IMG/VR virus record: IMGVR_UViG_3300048590_000481
Coordinates: 1 to 25,223 of that record
DNA: 25,223 bases
DNA from: a virus
Direction: 5' to 3' (one strand)
Shown piece by piece: positions 4,514 to 20,533 of this stretch; the stretch's first letter is position 1, and every line of letters begins with the position of its first letter. The notes under the pieces were generated by a model that saw only the letters and a program-made list of their open reading frames with translations, did not search any database and had not been told where the DNA came from. The position numbers and the translations under genes were made by a program.

Positions 4514-5032
4514 ATGAACAGAATAAAAGTATCAGAAAATTTCTTTTTGGATGAATTCATTGATCCGCACAGCTATTTGACACGTTCAGATAATGGACTT
4601 GGATTGATTGATAAAAAAGTTATTGCCATAGCTCAAAAGGTCCGTGAATTAAAAGGATCTTCAATCACCATAAATAATTGGTGGAACCACCTGGATAAAT
4701 ACACCGGTGATGCAGTAAAGTTTTTAAAATATTGCAATGATTCCAGGTTCATCAGGTGTTGGAGTGGTTACAGATCACCACTTTGCACAATCGGTGCCAC
4801 AAATTCAGCACACAGAAAAGGATGGGCCGCGGATATGGCCGGTGATGAAAAAGAATATTATAATATTGTGAAAGGGAACGCAGCCTGTTTTTATTTTATG
4901 GGTTTGAGGCGTTTGGAAGATAGAAGTATCACAAAGGGTTGGATGCACTTTGATATTTGGGAAAAAAATACACAGCCAAATTCAATCCGTGTTGTGGATC
5001 TTAAAAAATGCACTGAAACAATCCGTTGGTAA
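4514..5032 (+). CDS. Endolysin: M15-type zinc D-Ala-D-Ala/L-Ala-D-Glu peptidase
   Basis: A 172-residue protein. It carries the zinc site of the peptidase M15 family (VanY / M15_3-like): SAHRKGWAADM at about residues 98-108, with H100 and D107 as ligands, and WMHFDI at about 143-148, giving the third ligand H145. The sequence RCWSGYRSP at about 81-89 matches the substrate-binding GYRS motif. These enzymes cut peptide stems of peptidoglycan, so it is the likely muralytic enzyme of the lysis cassette. There is no signal peptide, so export would depend on a holin. All expected catalytic ligands appear present. Confidence 0.85.
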   Translation: MNRIKVSENFFLDEFIDPHSYLTRSDNGLGLIDKKVIAIAQKVRELKGSSITINNWWNHLDKYTGDAVKFLKYCNDSRFIRCWSGYRSPLCTIGATNSAHRKGWAADMAGDEKEYYNIVKGNAACFYFMGLRRLEDRSITKGWMHFDIWEKNTQPNSIRVVDLKKCTETIRW

Positions 5033-5435: not shown

Positions 5436-5775
5436 AAAGGCTACAATTGCAACCGGAAACCTATTGAAAGAAGGTGAAGGATATAAAAGCCTATTCAGTG
5501 AACAGCAGGTTTTGGTTGATAGCCTGATAAAACAAACTGAGATCCAAAAAAAGGAAAATGATGTTTTCCGGTTGAAGGTTGTTCCAGGATTGGAAAGTTT
5601 GAACCGTGAACAAAAAAAGGAAATCCAATTTGTGAATGAAAAAATTGAACTTAAAACTGAGCTTTTGCAAACTCAGTTGAAAAGGGAAAAAGGAAGGAAG
5701 TGGACCTTTGGCGCAATTGGCACTGGATTTGGCGTTTTGATAACTTTGGCAGGGTTGTTATTGTTTGGGGGGTGA
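5317..5775 (+). CDS. Second spanin-like protein: signal peptide, coiled coil and C-terminal TM
   Basis: A 152-residue protein whose first 119 bases overlap the previous gene in another frame. Residues about 8-25 (NFFLSGILLFVTMHGSSQ) look like a Bacteroidetes Sec signal peptide ending in SSQ. The middle is a charged coiled coil (residues about 60-125) and residues about 131-151 form a final hydrophobic helix. There is no lipobox cysteine, so it is not a classical Rz1 lipoprotein. The layout resembles a unimolecular spanin with the lipid anchor replaced. If translation began at the internal Met of MHGSS it would be a tail-anchored cytosolic protein. The stop overlaps a promoter. Confidence 0.55.
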   Translation: MKSNVNKNFFLSGILLFVTMHGSSQTVLTDTIQERTVLDKKATIATGNLLKEGEGYKSLFSEQQVLVDSLIKQTEIQKKENDVFRLKVVPGLESLNREQKKEIQFVNEKIELKTELLQTQLKREKGRKWTFGAIGTGFGVLITLAGLLLFGG

Positions 5776-5791
5776 ATTTGATATATATTTG
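5761..5791 (+). promoter_or_regulatory. Bacteroidetes-type promoter TTG-N20-TATATTTG
   Basis: TTG at 5761-5763, a 20-base spacer and TATATTTG at 5784-5791 match the -33/-7 consensus of Bacteroidetes (TTG and TAnnTTTG). It overlaps the end of the spanin-like gene. The predicted start near 5797 is only about 75 bases before a strong terminator and no gene lies between, so its product would be a short RNA. Confidence 0.6.
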
Positions 5792-5796
5792 CACTG

Positions 5797-5875
5797 TTTG
5801 TGTATCATATCTACATACTGATACTAATTATCGTTTGTTTGAAAACCCTTCAGTTTAACTGGGGGGTTTTCTTCT
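5797..5875 (+). ncRNA. Candidate trans-acting small RNA with a seed matching phage leaders
   Basis: Between a good promoter and an intrinsic terminator lie about 75 bases with the build of a bacterial small RNA. There is a 5' hairpin (GTATCA at 5802-5807 with TGATAC at 5819-5824), a likely unpaired linker, then a terminator hairpin. The linker carries ATCGTTTGTTTG at 5830-5841. Its complement CAAACAAACGAT occurs exactly in the leader before the gene at 18573. Matches of 11-13 bases occur before the genes at 5953, 12119, 15372 and 19238, next to their start codons. The structure and complementarity are read from the sequence; expression and function are inferred. Confidence 0.5.
5841..5875 (+). 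terminator. Strong intrinsic terminator after the lysis module
   Basis: GAAAACCCTTCAG (5841-5853) pairs with CTGGGGGGTTTTC (5859-5871) through 13 pairs, including one G-T, around the loop TTTAA. T-rich sequence follows. The A-rich left arm makes it potentially bidirectional. It separates lysis-module transcription from the early-gene promoter just downstream. Confidence 0.8.
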
Positions 5876-5880
5876 TTAAT

Positions 5881-5952
5881 AAAGATTTTTATTAATTTAT
5901 TAGGTTTTAATAAAATCCTTTATTATTTTTGTCTTAACAAACAAACGAAATT
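5881..5952 (+). promoter_or_regulatory. Promoter, operator-like inverted repeat and conserved leader
   Basis: TATTTTTG at 5924-5931 is a TAnnTTTG box. Just upstream, AAAGATTTTTATT (5881-5893) faces AATAAAATCCTTT (5909-5921), an imperfect inverted repeat with 11 of 13 matching positions that could bind a dimeric repressor. Downstream is the leader AACAAACAAACGAAATT directly before the ATG at 5953. The same order recurs at 18487-18572. No clear TTG lies at the usual -33 distance, so activity may depend on an activator. Confidence 0.55.
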
Positions 5953-6399
5953 ATGGAACAAATAAATCAAAGAACAAAAAATTATGTGGAACATTATGAA
6001 AAAGTTGATCCACGAAAAATATATTCATTAACTGAATTATTAGAGTTAAGCGAATTAGAACTTCTTAATCTGATGCCACAAAATCAATGTGTTGATGAAT
6101 ATTCAGATAAACATGGTTTTAACATAACAAAACATATTGTTGGATTTGGAATTTATAAAATAATTGATGGCACTTGGCGAATTGGTTATTATGAAAACCA
6201 CAGAGATAAAAAACAATCAGAACAATATAAACTTTTTGAAATTTCCTATGTAAATGATTTGAAAATTGGATTAGTTGATTTGTTTCTTATGGTTCAAAAT
6301 AGAAGTATTGAATATTTTAATGGTGTTAAGTCAGGCCGTATAAAATTAAATCTTTCTGAAAGTTGGGATAATCGTGAAGAGTTGGGTTTATCAAAATAG
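5953..6399 (+). CDS. Hypothetical early protein
   Basis: A 148-residue soluble protein, first gene of a transcription unit with its own promoter and the ACAAACGA leader. It has a helical N-terminal part (LTELLELSELELLNLM at about residues 26-41). A more beta-like central part follows, with aromatic stretches (HIVGFGIYKIIDGTWRIGYY) at about 59-78. I recognise no domain, metal site or membrane segment. Being first in the operon behind a regulated promoter suggests an early regulatory or host-takeover role, but that is context only. Confidence 0.55.
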   Translation: MEQINQRTKNYVEHYEKVDPRKIYSLTELLELSELELLNLMPQNQCVDEYSDKHGFNITKHIVGFGIYKIIDGTWRIGYYENHRDKKQSEQYKLFEISYVNDLKIGLVDLFLMVQNRSIEYFNGVKSGRIKLNLSESWDNREELGLSK

Positions 6400-7037: not shown

Positions 7038-7394
7038 ATGGCTGAAAAGCAAAGAAAATTGTATTTGGATGTTCCAAAACTGATTGAGATCCACAACAGA
7101 AACAATCCAAATGATATTGTTGATCGTGATGGATTTGCAAAGAAGTTTGAAACTACATATCAAACTTTGACAAATTACAATGGCGGTGTTATTCCTAAAT
7201 CATTGGAATTGGTGAACAAAATTTTAACCGTATCAAAAGCAAAATATGAAGAAGTTTTTGTTGAGGTTGGAAAAGAAAAAATTCAGGAACCAAAAACGAA
7301 AAAACAAGATCCATTTCCTGATTCACTTCAGAAGGCCATCAATGAAATTGGTGGTGATGAAATAATTCAAATTTTAACCAAAAGAAAAAAGTAA
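7038..7394 (+). CDS. Small helix-turn-helix-like protein
   Basis: A 118-residue protein. Residues about 30-70 (DGFAKKFETTYQTLTNYNGG, then PKSLELVNKILTVSKAKYEE) have the spacing of an XRE/Cro-type helix-turn-helix: a helix, a T-Y-Q-T-L-x-N-Y recognition-like helix, then P-x-S-L helices. A basic linker and a short C-terminal helix follow. It could be a phage transcriptional regulator acting on the operator-like repeats found in this window, but that link is speculative. Its stop overlaps the ATG of the nuclease gene (TAATGA), implying coupled translation. Confidence 0.5.
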   Translation: MAEKQRKLYLDVPKLIEIHNRNNPNDIVDRDGFAKKFETTYQTLTNYNGGVIPKSLELVNKILTVSKAKYEEVFVEVGKEKIQEPKTKKQDPFPDSLQKAINEIGGDEIIQILTKRKK

Positions 7395-9376: not shown

Positions 9377-9384
9377 TATATTTG
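9377..9384 (+). promoter_or_regulatory. TATATTTG promoter box before the kissing-loop leader
   Basis: TATATTTG at 9377-9384 matches the Bacteroidetes -7 box. No TTG lies at the expected -33 spacing. It is followed by about 100 non-coding bases ending in an intrinsic terminator. Confidence 0.5.
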
Positions 9385-9389
9385 CGTTA

Positions 9390-9483
9390 GTGTTGCGCTC
9401 GACTAAAGCAACAGCAAAGATTTTTATAACACCCTTTTAATGAATTTTCCAGTCGAGCGGAAAAGGATTTAAGAGGGTTTTTT
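9390..9483 (+). ncRNA. Two-hairpin leader RNA or small RNA with complementary loops
   Basis: Hairpin 1 is TGTTGC (9391-9396) with GCAACA (9408-9413), loop GCTCGACTAAA. Hairpin 2 is the terminator, whose inner stem TTTTCC (9445-9450) / GGAAAA (9459-9464) holds the loop AGTCGAGC (9451-9458). Loop 1 bases 9397-9404 (GCTCGACT) are the exact reverse complement of loop 2, so an 8-base-pair kissing interaction is possible, or 9 pairs if the flanking C-G opens. Such contacts control RNA partner binding, stability or termination. The RNA ends 11 bases before the replication initiator start, so it could be an attenuator for that gene or a stand-alone small RNA. Confidence 0.55.
9431..9483 (+). terminator. 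Intrinsic terminator upstream of the replication initiator
   Basis: ACCCTTTTAA (9431-9440) pairs with TTAAGAGGGT (9469-9478) over 10 positions with one G-T, topped by a second stem of 6 pairs, and is followed by TTTTTT (9478-9483). It forms hairpin 2 of the kissing-loop RNA. Its place directly ahead of the initiator gene suggests conditional read-through. Confidence 0.75.
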
Positions 9484-9494
9484 AATTGTAAAAA

Positions 9495-12042: not shown

Positions 12043-12118
12043 AAAGATATTTATTTTTTTAACCATAAAAAACAAAGGATTTTATTAAATTTACACCACA
12101 AACAAAAACAAACGATTA
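12043..12118 (+). promoter_or_regulatory. Promoter region with two AAAG..TTTAT elements and ACAAACGAT leader
   Basis: TAAATTTA at 12086-12093 is a near-consensus -7 box. AAAGATATTTATT (12043-12055) and AAAGGATTTTATT (12074-12086) are direct copies of the half-site seen at 5881 and 18487. AAACAAACGATTAATG ends in the start codon at 12119-12121. The leader can pair with the candidate small RNA over 11 bases (AAACAAACGAT). Confidence 0.5.
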
Positions 12119-14293
12119 ATGAAACAAACATCAGATTATCAGAGATTTTTAAAAACGAAAGAAAAAACATTTATTTCAAGTGGTTTCATAGTTGATGAAG
12201 AAAAGCTAAATCCAATGCTTTTCCCTTTTCAGAAATATTGTGTAAAGGTTGCACTTGAAAAAGGAAGGTTTGCACTTTTTGAAGATTGCGGACTTGGAAA
12301 AACAGCTCAGCAACTTGAATGGGCGCATCAGGTTTATTTGCATACTGGAATGAAAGTTTTAATACTTGCACCTTTAGCAGTAGTTGAACAAACCAAAAGA
12401 GAGGCTAAAAAGTTTAATATTCCAAGTGAATGTTTTGATATTACAAACTTCGATCAATTGAAAAATATTGATTGCTCAGTTTATTCAGGAATTGTTTTGG
12501 ATGAATCAAGTATCTTAAAAGGAAAAGACGGAAAACTTTCATCATTGATTATTGAAACCTTTAAAAATACACCGTACAAGTTAGCATGTACAGCAACACC
12601 ATCACCAAATGATCACATGGAATTGGGCCAACACGTTGAATTTTTAGGTTTTGATAGTTATGAAAATATGAAATCAATGTTTTTTATTCAAGATCAAAAA
12701 ATAAAAAGCAATGATAAATGGAGGTTAAGAAAACACGCTGAAGATGATTTTTGGAAATACGTTTGCACTTGGAGTATGTCAATTGATAATCCTTCAACTT
12801 TGGGTTTTGATGGTGAAGGCTTTAATCTTCCTGAAATTGAATTTGTAGAACATATAATTCCAGTTGAAAACAAAAGCGGAAATCTATTCAATGACGTTGC
12901 AGTTAGTGCAACTGATTTGCACAAAGATTTGAAACGTTCATTTGATAAAAGGATTCAAAAAACAATTGAATTAGTGAACAGTTCTGATGAACAATGGTTG
13001 ATTTGGACATTAAAAAATGATGAAGCTGATGCACTTTCAAGAGCAATTAAAAATTCAGTAAATGTTCAGGGTTCAAACAATGCAGATTATAAATCAAAAA
13101 ATCTAAATGGTTTTGCAGATAACGAATTTCAAAATCTTATAACAAAAACTTCAATTGCTTCATTTGGGATGAACTTTCAAAATTGCAGCAATATGATATT
13201 CACGTCCTATGATTTTAAATTTGAACAATTTTATCAGGGTGTTAGGCGATCATATCGCTTCGGACAAAAAAACAAAGTTACAGTTCATTTATTGGTTCCT
13301 GAAACACAAAAAAATGTGAGGCAATCAATATTGGAAAAAGAAAGAAAACACAAATTAATGATTTCAGAAATGGCAAAATACTCAGCAAATACAGATTATA
13401 AAAAAAATGAATCTGCAATAAATAAAAACTTCCGTGAATTTAAAAGTGAAAACTTTTGGTTAATGGAAGGCGATTGTGTAGATAGGACAAAGGAAATTGA
13501 AGATGAAAGCGTTGATTATTCATTTTTTAGTCCACCGTTTAAAGATTTATATACTTATTCTGATGATCCGAGAGATTTATCAAACGTAACAAATGATGAT
13601 GATTTTTACAAACACTTCAGGTTTTTAGTCCCTGAACTTTTTAGAGTTTTAAAACCTGGAAGATTATTATCAATGCATATAATGCAGGGAACAACATCAA
13701 TTGGAAAAGATGGTTTTCTTTCAATTATTGATTTTAGAGGTGAACTAATACGTTTGTTTCAGGAATATGGTTTTATATTCCACGCTGAAAAGATGATTCG
13801 TAAAAACCCACAATTGGCAGCAGTAAGGACAAAAAACATTCAATTGATGCACGGCCAAACAAAAAGAGATAGTTCAATCAATAGGCCTGGATTGGCTGAT
13901 TATGTTATTACATTTAGAAAGCCAGGCCAAAACATTGTTCCAATTCAAAATGATATTGATTTTGATCTTTGGTGTAAATTAGCTGAGCCGGTTTGGATGG
14001 ATATAAATGAAAGTGATGTTATTTCAAACTTCAGAAAAGCAAAAGGAAAAAATGATGAAAAACACATGACACCAACGCAGTTAAGTGTTATCAGAAATTG
14101 TTATTTGCTATGGAGTAATCCTGGTGATGTTTGTTTCAGTCCGTTTGGTGGTGTTGGCAGTGAGGGTTGCCAGGCTATAAAAATGGATAGAAAAAGCATA
14201 AATATAGAACTGAAGGAAAGTTATTTTGATATGAATTATTCAAATCACAAAGCATTTGAAGAAAATAAAAACTCAGTTCTTACTTTGTTTTAA
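12119..14293 (+). CDS. Fusion of SNF2-like SF2 helicase and beta-class DNA methyltransferase
   Basis: A 724-residue protein. Residues 1 to about 430 are an SF2/SNF2-type ATPase: Walker A DCGLGKT ending at about residue 62, DESS at about 128-131, TATPSPND (motif III), and QGVRRSYRFGQ around 372-382 (motif VI). Residues about 445-724 are a DNA methyltransferase with motif IV FSPPFKDL at about 470-477 and motif I FSPFGGVGSEG at about 672-682. That order, catalytic before SAM-binding, is the beta class, and SPPF suggests N4-cytosine or N6-adenine methylation. No nuclease domain is seen, so it is not a complete restriction enzyme. Protection of phage DNA is the likely role. It begins behind its own promoter. 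Confidence 0.75.
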   Translation: MKQTSDYQRFLKTKEKTFISSGFIVDEEKLNPMLFPFQKYCVKVALEKGRFALFEDCGLGKTAQQLEWAHQVYLHTGMKVLILAPLAVVEQTKREAKKFNIPSECFDITNFDQLKNIDCSVYSGIVLDESSILKGKDGKLSSLIIETFKNTPYKLACTATPSPNDHMELGQHVEFLGFDSYENMKSMFFIQDQKIKSNDKWRLRKHAEDDFWKYVCTWSMSIDNPSTLGFDGEGFNLPEIEFVEHIIPVENKSGNLFNDVAVSATDLHKDLKRSFDKRIQKTIELVNSSDEQWLIWTLKNDEADALSRAIKNSVNVQGSNNADYKSKNLNGFADNEFQNLITKTSIASFGMNFQNCSNMIFTSYDFKFEQFYQGVRRSYRFGQKNKVTVHLLVPETQKNVRQSILEKERKHKLMISEMAKYSANTDYKKNESAINKNFREFKSENFWLMEGDCVDRTKEIEDESVDYSFFSPPFKDLYTYSDDPRDLSNVTNDDDFYKHFRFLVPELFRVLKPGRLLSMHIMQGTTSIGKDGFLSIIDFRGELIRLFQEYGFIFHAEKMIRKNPQLAAVRTKNIQLMHGQTKRDSSINRPGLADYVITFRKPGQNIVPIQNDIDFDLWCKLAEPVWMDINESDVISNFRKAKGKNDEKHMTPTQLSVIRNCYLLWSNPGDVCFSPFGGVGSEGCQAIKMDRKSINIELKESYFDMNYSNHKAFEENKNSVLTLF

Positions 14294-15343: not shown

Positions 15344-15371
15344 TATATTTGTAAAACAAACGATTAAACAA
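15344..15371 (+). promoter_or_regulatory. TATATTTG promoter with ACAAACGATT leader
   Basis: TATATTTG at 15344-15351 is followed by TAAAACAAACGATTAAACAA and the ATG at 15372. The leader copy AAACAAACGAT lies only a few bases after the predicted transcription start. A -33 TTG is not evident at the normal distance. Confidence 0.55.
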
Positions 15372-15884
15372 ATGCATCACGAAGTAATTTCATTCGGACA
15401 TGTGAACGGTGAAGGCGAGTTATCATTATATGATAAAAAATCCTTTTCATTGGCAGTTAAGAACAAATTGAAAAACAAATCAATTGAGCTTATTGCACGT
15501 GAACGTTTTTATCCATTTTCCGACAAACAAAGGGCATATTATTTTGCCGTGATAGTTACTGAAGCAAAACATGCGTTTCTTTCATCAGGTGTTTTAAAAA
15601 GCCTAAAGGAAACAGATACTTTTTTGCGTGAATCATTTCTTTTCAAAGAAACATTAAATCCTGAAACTGGAATTTATGAAAAAGAGGTTTACAGTTTGGG
15701 AAATTTAAACCAGGAAGTGAGCAAAAAAATGATGCGTGAATTTTGCGAAACTTGCATTATATTCTGTATCACTTCGCTTGACTGGGCAGTGCCGTTTCCA
15801 AATGAAATATTTGGCCCAAATGAAATGACTGAAAAGCAAAAAAATGTTTCATCAGGCAAAACATTAAAGGAATCAACTTTTTAA
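15372..15884 (+). CDS. Phage recombination-module protein, possibly NinB-like
   Basis: A 170-residue protein. The start at 15372 follows the promoter and conserved leader; a longer in-frame start would overlap the promoter. The segment ARERFYPFSDKQRAYYFAVI at about residues 43-62 recalls the S-x-Q-N/R-x-Y-Y-x-x-V pattern of phage NinB-like and related recombination proteins, which promote strand annealing. The C-terminal part (LNQEVSKKMMREFCETCIIF, then DWAVPFPNE) is helical. The NinB link is by pattern and weak; hypothetical is the safe alternative. It is followed by a structured repeat-rich cassette. Confidence 0.5.
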   Translation: MHHEVISFGHVNGEGELSLYDKKSFSLAVKNKLKNKSIELIARERFYPFSDKQRAYYFAVIVTEAKHAFLSSGVLKSLKETDTFLRESFLFKETLNPETGIYEKEVYSLGNLNQEVSKKMMREFCETCIIFCITSLDWAVPFPNEIFGPNEMTEKQKNVSSGKTLKESTF

Positions 15885-18486: not shown

Positions 18487-18572
18487 AAAAGTTTTTATCA
18501 TTTTATTTGGTAATAATAAAAACCTTTATTAAATTTGTTCCAACAAACAAACAAACGATTAAAACAAACGAC
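18487..18572 (+). promoter_or_regulatory. Promoter TTG-N20-TAAATTTG with operator-like repeat and leader
   Basis: TTG at 18507-18509, a 20-base spacer and TAAATTTG at 18530-18537 give the best promoter in the window. AAAAGTTTTTAT (18487-18498) and ATAAAAACCTTT (18516-18527) form an inverted repeat with one mismatch that brackets the -33 element. The leader contains CAAACAAACGAT at 18548-18559, a perfect 12-base complement of the small RNA candidate. The block aligns closely with that at 5881-5952. Confidence 0.65.
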
Positions 18573-18896
18573 ATGAAAACACAAACAAATTTCCGTTCAA
18601 ACGTATTTGCAAAAGCACATTTAATTTTTTCATCAACTCGCATTTCATTTTCCGATGCATTGAAAAAAGCCTGGAAACTTTACAGATTATCAAAGCAACT
18701 TTTTTCAAAGGATGAAGTGAAATTTAGCTACAAAAAAGTTGATGGCACTTTAAGAACTGCCTATGGCACTTTAAAGAACGTTTCACAATTCATAAAAGGA
18801 AACGGAACGCCAAATAATAAAGTTTTCAATTATTGGGATTTGGAGGCCGTTGGTTTCAGATGTTTCAAAATAGAAAACATTGTTTCAATAGGATAA
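18573..18896 (+). CDS. WYL_2/Sm-fold (DUF2693)-like phage protein
   Basis: A 107-residue protein. I use the ATG at 18573 (MKTQTNFRSNVFAKAH) because upstream in-frame starts fall in the promoter. The first half (AHLIFSSTRISFSDALKKAW) is a helical segment common before this domain in Bacteroidetes phages. The second half (DEVKFSYKKVDGTLRTAYGT at about 47-66, ending WDLEAVGFRCFKIENI) fits the WYL_2 Sm-like barrel, with the K-x-D-G-T-L-R-x-A-x-G-T signature. Its role is unknown; such small barrels may bind nucleic acid. It is monocistronic, between a strong regulated promoter and a structured terminator, so probably abundant. Confidence 0.6.
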   Translation: MKTQTNFRSNVFAKAHLIFSSTRISFSDALKKAWKLYRLSKQLFSKDEVKFSYKKVDGTLRTAYGTLKNVSQFIKGNGTPNNKVFNYWDLEAVGFRCFKIENIVSIG

Positions 18897-19222: not shown

Positions 19223-19237
19223 AAAACAAACGATAAA
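19223..19237 (+). promoter_or_regulatory. ACAAACGATAA leader before the GHKL-like gene
   Basis: AAAACAAACGATAAA directly precedes the ATG at 19238. AAACAAACGATAA matches the complement of the small RNA candidate over 13 bases, the longest match in the window. No TAnnTTTG box is evident close upstream. Confidence 0.45.
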
Positions 19238-20533
19238 ATGAAGTATTTAAAAATTTCAAACAAAGGTGTTGTTGAACCTGAGGCCTTCAGTTTAGTTGGC
19301 GCATCAACAAAAAGAAACGATGATTCAAAAATTGGAATGTTTGGATCAGGAAACAAATATGCAATCAGTTTCCTATTCAGGAACAAAATGAACTTCAGGG
19401 TTTTCACTGGAGGCCGTGAAATGACATTTACAACCGTTGAAAAGGCATTTGCAGGAAAAACATTTGATGTTATTGTTATTGATGGAAAAGAAACTTCTTT
19501 AACTACTGAAATGGGGCCAAAATGGAAATTGTGGCAGGCAATCAGGGAACTTTATTCAAACGCAATGGATGAAGGCCTGATTGAATTTAAAATGGTTGAT
19601 GCCATTTCTGATGATGAACCAACTGATGAAACTTCAATTTATATTGAGGCAAACATGGAACTGTTGGAAATGCATTTTGAAATTGATAAATACTTTTCAC
19701 ATGGCAGGGTGCCAATTTATGAAAACAAGTTTGGAAAGATTTACAAAAGCTCAGGTAAAAGTTGCGTGGTTTACAGAAAAGGAATCAAAGCAATTGAAAA
19801 TGAAAAACCTGGAATATTTGATTATGATCTGAATGATTTGGATTTAACTGAAGATAGGATTGCAAGATATTCATGGGATGTTCCTCAGGGAATTTGGAAC
19901 CTGTTGGAACTTTGTGATGATGATTTTATTGTTCGCAAATTGCTGATGGAAATTCCAAACCGTGAATATTTTGAAAACAATGTTGATGATTCATTTGTAA
20001 CTGTTTTCACCGGTGGAAAATTTCCTCAGGTTTGGAAAGAGGCACTTTGTGATTCCAAGATTGCGCCAAGAAACATGGGCGGTTTTGTAAAGGATGAAGA
20101 ACGTGCAAAAACAACACTTTTACCATCACGTTTATACAATGCAATGGTTGCCAGTTTTGGAAAGGATCTGAAAACACAATCTTTTAAAACATCTGATGTT
20201 GGATTGCCTTATGTGATTGTAGAGCAAAAGGAATTTGAAAAGAAAATTCTGAATGATGTAAAAGGTTTTTTCACGGAATGTAAATTTGATATTGATTATG
20301 ATATTCGCATTGTTGATTTTAAAGATGCTGATATTCATGGTTCAATTGAAGGTGAAACAATTCTGATTGATATAAATGCTTTTGAACGTGGAAAGGTTTG
20401 GATTGCAAACGTTATCATTGAAGAGTATATTCACATAAAGCATAATGCAGCCGATGAAAGCCGAAAGTTCCAGGATGCATCAATTGGTGAACTTTTAACC
20501 TATATGCAAAAAATAAATTCATTTTTGTTATGA
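19238..20533 (+). CDS. GHKL-like ATPase with reordered motifs and a degenerate metalloprotease-like tail
   Basis: A 431-residue protein. IGMFGSGNKYA at about residues 32-42 resembles the glycine-rich lid motif of Hsp90/MutL/MORC ATPases. IRELYSNAMDEG at about 101-112 resembles their N-box, with E104, N108 and D111. In classical GHKL proteins the N-box comes first, so a circular permutation is suggested. Near the end, VIIEEYIHIKHNAAD at about 392-406 resembles a zinc-protease helix (HExxH), but the first histidine is E395, so peptidase activity is doubtful. It follows the ACAAACGATAA leader. A DNA- or protein-remodelling role is possible; function is unknown. Confidence 0.5.
   Translation: MKYLKISNKGVVEPEAFSLVGASTKRNDDSKIGMFGSGNKYAISFLFRNKMNFRVFTGGREMTFTTVEKAFAGKTFDVIVIDGKETSLTTEMGPKWKLWQAIRELYSNAMDEGLIEFKMVDAISDDEPTDETSIYIEANMELLEMHFEIDKYFSHGRVPIYENKFGKIYKSSGKSCVVYRKGIKAIENEKPGIFDYDLNDLDLTEDRIARYSWDVPQGIWNLLELCDDDFIVRKLLMEIPNREYFENNVDDSFVTVFTGGKFPQVWKEALCDSKIAPRNMGGFVKDEERAKTTLLPSRLYNAMVASFGKDLKTQSFKTSDVGLPYVIVEQKEFEKKILNDVKGFFTECKFDIDYDIRIVDFKDADIHGSIEGETILIDINAFERGKVWIANVIIEEYIHIKHNAADESRKFQDASIGELLTYMQKINSFLL

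Follow-up and report, generated by a model that had tools for sequence, protein, structure and literature searches.

The window analysed here is the whole 25,223-nt stretch of DNA at positions 1 to 25,223 of IMG/VR virus record IMGVR_UViG_3300048590_000481, and a second contig of the same phage, IMGVR_UViG_3300048589_000381, carries the same DNA (99.99% over 14.5 kb). A short plus-strand unit at 5784-5875 lies between a gene whose stop is at 5775, which comes after an endolysin-family gene at 4514, and the gene at 5953, the first of the next module. Its promoter (5761-5791), recognised from the sequence, combines a TTG at 5761-5763, a spacer of 20 nt and TATATTTG at 5784-5791. This is the -33/-7 type of the Bacteroidota, for which the consensus is TTTG and TAnnTTTG (as cited in PMC7366714), and a TAnnTTTG-type box is found at the identical position in all the related units listed. 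The predicted small RNA of approximately 75 nt (5797-5875) would start about 5 nt past the -7 box and end with the terminator; there are no transcript data. No ATG occurs in 5797-5871. A GTG frame at 5801 was considered as a gene and judged unlikely; it continues through the terminator.

In the RNA fold, a 5′ hairpin (GTATCA...TGATAC, 5802-5824), which the initial annotation had missed, is followed by an unpaired linker and then by an intrinsic terminator hairpin (5841-5871, evident in both the sequence and the fold) with a T-rich run behind it. The linker carries the antisense seed TTATCGTTTGTTTG (5828-5841), which includes ATCGTTTGTTTG at 5830-5841 and the unpaired core TCGTTTGTTT at 5831-5840. 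The z-score of the fold is -4.7, with the terminator as the main contributor. The promoter and the gene-free unit of about 75 bases described in the initial annotation stand as they were given, and its 13-pair terminator has to be amended, as the fold gives 14 pairs. A base-pairing RNA that acts in trans is generally expected to have its own promoter and an intrinsic terminator and no evident protein-coding role, and the unit meets this description. At the gathering score, no Rfam 15 family matches anywhere in the window. The arms of the 5′ hairpin also form a perfect dyad (GTATCA-N11-TGATAC, 5802-5824) directly past the promoter, where a repressor operator is possible in addition to an RNA structure.

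The complement of the seed is found on the plus strand before five genes of the window: 11 nt at 5938-5948 before the gene at 5953, the first past the unit; 11 nt at 12106-12116 before the helicase-methyltransferase gene at 12119; 11 nt at 15354-15364 before the gene at 15372; two sites, of 12 nt (18548-18559) and 10 nt (18562-18571), before the gene at 18573, which encodes a WYL_2 protein; and 13 nt at 19224-19236 before the gene at 19238, which encodes a GHKL-like ATPase. Pairing before these five genes had been claimed at 11, 11, 11, 12 and 13 nt, respectively, and we could verify it base by base; all of the sites in the window lie within approximately 25 nt of the start codon. A sixth target is a further copy of the leader before the gene L005:9467, just beyond the window end on contig IMGVR_UViG_3300048589_000381. 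The leaders of 5953, 15372 and 18573 stand directly 3′ of TAnnTTTG boxes and are thus probably the 5′ ends of mRNAs with promoters of their own. The earlier functional labels held for the helicase-methyltransferase and for the WYL_2-like protein (PF10902), and the GHKL-like/HATPase label is supported via annotated phage homologues. Among these three targets, which have an assignment by homology, none is an antirepressor. The products of 5953 and L005:9467 have no family match, and relatives of the 5953 protein were found only in the same phage.

Within the window, AAACAAACGA occurs seven times on the plus strand, with six of the copies at the starts of the five genes, and its single antisense copy is inside the small RNA unit. 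Along with the one-base-shifted AAACAAACG, AACAAACGA is the 9-mer most enriched at gene starts (6/7 copies, p = 9e-8 before correction). An unsupervised search of all terminator-proximal k-mers ranks the seed first here, as it does the seed of Croceibacter phage P2559S. Of 2000 shuffles of the linker 9 scored as high as the original, and so did 130 of the 5036 genome windows of the same length (both strands); with a genome as A-rich as this one, the match by itself is therefore no more than suggestive. Duplex energy did not separate targets from non-targets, and the reversed linker also finds a strong partner. Judged from the window alone the match is moderately unlikely; it is the comparative evidence that makes it strong. 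The score shared by so many windows, together with the low complexity of the seed, leaves room for a simple explanation in which the hairpin merely ends the lysis operon, where a terminator is expected, the resemblance of the box to a promoter is fortuitous and A-rich leaders account for the complementarity. We disfavour this explanation and consider it highly improbable, for reasons that come from other phages.

The exonuclease at 7394 leads to P2559S (65%), which is the closest annotated relative. The intergenic region at 30505-30690 of P2559S contains TATATTTG, a short linker with CGCTCTCGGT, which is unlike the linker of the window, and a terminator. CGAGAGC is present in nine copies on the plus strand of this 45 kb genome and all nine are at gene starts, with one copy inside the exonuclease gene, at codons 3-5, and the other eight at a distance of 8-16 nt from the annotated start that they precede. 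CGAGAGC is also the 7-mer with the strongest enrichment at starts in the P2559S genome (p = 4e-13 before correction for 16,384 7-mers), and its only antisense copy lies inside the unit. In six aligned RNAs of the P2559S type the -7 box is invariant and the body largely so while the terminator sequences differ, which is not what would be expected of a terminator accompanied by an accidental box. Only tRNAs match Rfam in P2559S and six relatives.

The same promoter-linker-terminator unit with a different seed is present in P2559S and its relatives and in the phages at L029/L463, L466, L264, L498 and L503, where the seeds match different leaders belonging to the respective phage, each common to 3-9 gene starts. 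The helicase-methyltransferase gene is targeted in other phages too, by other seeds. In L029 the seed TTTTCGTTT matches the leader AACGAAAA, all five copies of which precede starts, one being that of the helicase-methyltransferase; L463, whose own leader count is weak, was retained mainly as a homologue of L029. The RNA of L466 aligns with that of L029 and is its homologue in sequence, yet its seed is changed, together with the leaders (AACTAAAC). L503 has the seed TCATAATCTT and the leader AAGATTATG (4/4 copies at starts), and L498 a 12-nt seed, TTGTTTTGTTTT, and the leader AAAACAAAACAA (3/3 copies at starts, helicase included). In L264, with the seed CGTATCGTTT, the leaders AAACGATACGACAATG precede an exonuclease, a small protein and a 469-aa protein with a resemblance to RecN/condensin-type ATPases that rests solely on its position and its first residues. 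Immediately upstream of its antisense unit, L264 has another promoter-terminator unit (L264:6595-6670), of unassigned role. L482, L508 and L472 are probable further cases. L304/L305 was rejected as weak, and its -7 box appears to lie within a gene. We found no convincing antisense unit in FCV-1, Arctus_1, TCUEAP2, PDS1, C1_85S2P, PD491P1, BKO1-3 or AS73P1. Recurrence in unrelated sequence forms, including the complex seed of P2559S, is difficult to reconcile with complementarity that arises from A-rich leaders by chance.

DNA searches with the region of the unit against phage and plasmid collections gave no match, nor did the same searches with the L236 and L264 units. Searching viral contigs for the exact seed followed by a terminator returned 15 stretches, one from the same phage and the others of unrelated sequence, and among the matches listed for the exact leader before an ATG essentially all are due to chance, so the leader looks private to this phage. 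Two unrelated viral fragments, found in viral contigs by promoter and exact seed, contain further promoter-linker-terminator units with the core seed TCGTTTGTTT, one at L328:13226-13320 and one on the minus strand near the right-hand end of L361. The latter fragment has one matching leader, after a TATATTTG box. Since these fragments carry only 0-1 leaders, they are unproven as cases.

The main scan covered 166 loci with 98 promoter-terminator units and asked for linker k-mers complementary to at least three leaders. Ten of the 166 loci were positive in the antisense orientation, with scores of 24-50, and the identical, reversed and complemented k-mer controls gave 1, 1 and 2 loci, all at a score of 24. 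Several of the ten are interrelated; five are P2559S-like, and L304 and L305 belong together. A later, fresh set of 76 loci gave 3 in the antisense orientation and 0, 0 and 0 in the orientation controls. These nearly empty controls speak against the explanation by a terminator and chance, and they exclude pure chance for the class, though not for every added case. An accessible seed that is complementary to several start regions beyond chance, another general expectation for such an RNA, is thereby met.

A second line of evidence comes from the orthologous helicase-methyltransferase start. In nine chosen phages it matches the phage's own RNA over 9.6 nt and foreign RNAs over 6.2 nt, a difference reached in 0 of 100,000 permutations; the leaders were part of the reason for choosing these phages, and L466 entered with a misassigned start, an error that works against the hypothesis. 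With the unselected set of all 31 loci that have any unit, the values were 7.23 nt (own) and 6.23 nt (foreign), with 5/20,000 permutations; 21 of the 31 loci fall short of a 9-nt match, a point against the hypothesis. Compensatory change of seed and target between relatives, also a general hallmark of base-pairing regulators, is thus present. The proposal in the initial annotation of a discrete RNA that pairs in trans with several leaders is supported by this co-variation, the transcript, the action in trans, the repression and the early character of the target set being inferred. It had named as refuting a pattern in which relatives conserve the leaders while the seed drifts without compensation; the relatives display the opposite, seeds and leaders changing together. 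One caveat is that in the gut phages L225, L226, L227, L228 and L229 and in the Elizabethkingia phage L223 a shared leader, AGAGCGA, is kept right before several starts per phage and there is no antisense copy of it, so a shared leader can have another reason. Such leaders may predate the RNA in evolution or serve a second function. The AGAGCGA leaders often follow a G+C-rich hairpin and are related in sequence to the P2559S leader; their function is unexplained.

Our preferred interpretation, to which we assign a probability of roughly 0.78, is that the unit encodes a trans-acting antisense RNA that prevents translation from starting on a group of genes of the same phage. The anatomy of the unit, the complementarity and the co-variation with its controls are observed; transcription, action in trans, repression and timing are inferred. 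The main rival explanation is that the antisense element works only in cis as an insulator, folding onto the 5953 leader in transcripts that read through from the lysis genes and so blocking translation, the motif of the other leaders being unrelated. It is not without merit: the seed and the 5953 leader share a strand with 97 nt between them and pair with each other in a long fold, the next leader in P2559S-like phages is 118-127 nt downstream, and in most cases the gene adjoining the unit is one of the targets. However, the next exact leader copy is 690 nt away in L029 and 910 nt away in L264, and the unit has its own promoter and a terminator ahead of the leader. An insulator would also need no match at the 4-8 other leaders, yet tag and seed are matched genome-wide and the match extends to a helicase start kilobases away. 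We therefore regard the cis-only explanation as unlikely, if still the one to be taken most seriously among the alternatives.

According to the trans-acting interpretation, a host-type promoter would drive a phage RNA of about 75 nt whose transcription ends at the intrinsic terminator, and the single-stranded linker would supply an antisense seed of 11-13 nt to a leader repeated at at least six of the phage's gene starts. Flavobacterium does not use Shine-Dalgarno pairing to initiate translation; adenines ahead of the start codon and an unstructured start region tune it, and structure there is linked to lower translation (PMC6847099). Pairing over 9-13 nt at the start region should block initiation; it would cover the ribosome landing site of A-rich leaders that lack a Shine-Dalgarno sequence, and the genes would be turned down together. 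The leader may thus be a private tag for a gene set and the RNA its cognate silencer, both changing together between phages. In principle, the RNA could instead protect or open the mRNAs with which it pairs. The direction of the effect cannot be read from the sequence, and it can be inferred, though no more than that, that short leaders might be protected from decay by an RNA paired to their 5′ ends. Activation or stabilisation nevertheless seems very improbable to us given that the pairing lies within approximately 25 nt of the start codon, that it includes the start codon itself in L503, L482 and L508, that one site in P2559S falls within the exonuclease coding sequence, at codons 3-5, and given the association of start-region structure with lower translation in Flavobacterium. 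As to timing, the position of the unit between the lysis genes and the next module leads us to propose that a shut-off as infection proceeds is most likely, with the RNA accumulating and the tagged genes becoming silenced; the host-type promoter also fits this inference.

Several known RNAs resemble the one predicted here in part. The c4 RNA of P1/P7 and the sar RNA of P22 (77 and 68/69 nt) are likewise short phage RNAs that pair around the ribosome-binding site or translation start of a phage mRNA, and they block translation (PMC12197685). Theirs is a single target, the antirepressor ant mRNA, in the lysogeny control of enterobacterial phages (PMC12197685), whereas the present RNA is matched by a leader that recurs at six or more gene starts, and no antirepressor is among the targets that have an identity. 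The OOP RNA of lambda is an independently promoted phage RNA of 77 nt that lowers phage gene expression, but it is a cis-encoded antisense to cII (PMC12197685), and the present seed is 11-13 nt long with most targets kilobases away. VpdS of phage VP882 is phage-encoded, acts in trans and affects both phage and host mRNAs; unlike our RNA it is an Hfq-bound Vibrio RNA with no repeated leader tag described, nor is such a tag described for c4, sar or OOP in the same review (PMC12197685). In mechanism alone the RNA predicted here can be compared with GibS of Bacteroides thetaiotaomicron, a Bacteroidota sRNA that provides an experimentally tested precedent for pairing at start codons. GibS has several mRNAs as partners in this way, and in vitro it bound two of them at high affinity with no protein cofactor present; it is chromosomal, has metabolic targets and carries its seed in an unstructured 5′ part (PMC7366714).

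Most of the phage small RNAs listed in a review from 2025 have a single mRNA or a few as their targets (PMC12197685), and the novelty here would be a single RNA that reaches an entire group of genes of its own phage via a repeated leader tag. A targeted literature search found no paper that combines all of these features, most subscription journals being outside its coverage. The results suggest a little-known way for Bacteroidota viruses to shut down a set of genes together. Related phages have changed both seed and tag on several occasions, which provides natural compensatory mutations and a clean genetic test, and a sequence rule for discovery follows: once a shared leader is identified, look for the one place where it occurs in antisense. 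The subject touches on the way these phages change from one gene programme to another, on how translation is controlled when there is no Shine-Dalgarno pairing and, possibly, on immunity of one phage against another. If seeds and tags diversify in parallel between phages, the RNA could additionally provide an RNA-based immunity, acting on a co-infecting phage whose tag is identical and sparing those with other tags. That Bacteroidota phages as a group have a leader tag of their own per phage, one short RNA silencing all tagged genes and such an effect on co-infection is a generalisation we hold tentatively, at slightly less than even odds.

A second RNA unit is located at 9377-9494 of the window (RNA 9385-9494), right before a replication-initiator-like gene. 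It has a promoter, a 5′ hairpin and a terminator hairpin, and the loop of the 5′ hairpin can pair with that of the terminator hairpin (pseudoknot or kissing loop). It has no Rfam match, either in the window or in P2559S and six relatives. A search for this RNA gave 25 matches in 24 loci compared with 3, 3 and 1 in control searches; the matches at L221 and L297 were set aside as unlikely. The loci include L231:3182, L232:13248, L238:12070, L239:3572, L245:12906, L253:11837, L255:12738, L257:12230, L263:10401, L265:11969, L282:11797 and L298:12322. The RNA could be an attenuator or a separate RNA. Among the aligned cases there are 20 with an open reading frame that begins 7-17 nt past the T-run. 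The loops co-vary strongly across approximately 22 phages, and in nine phages all 12 hairpin and pseudoknot pairs form in every sequence, with changes on both sides in 8 of the 12.
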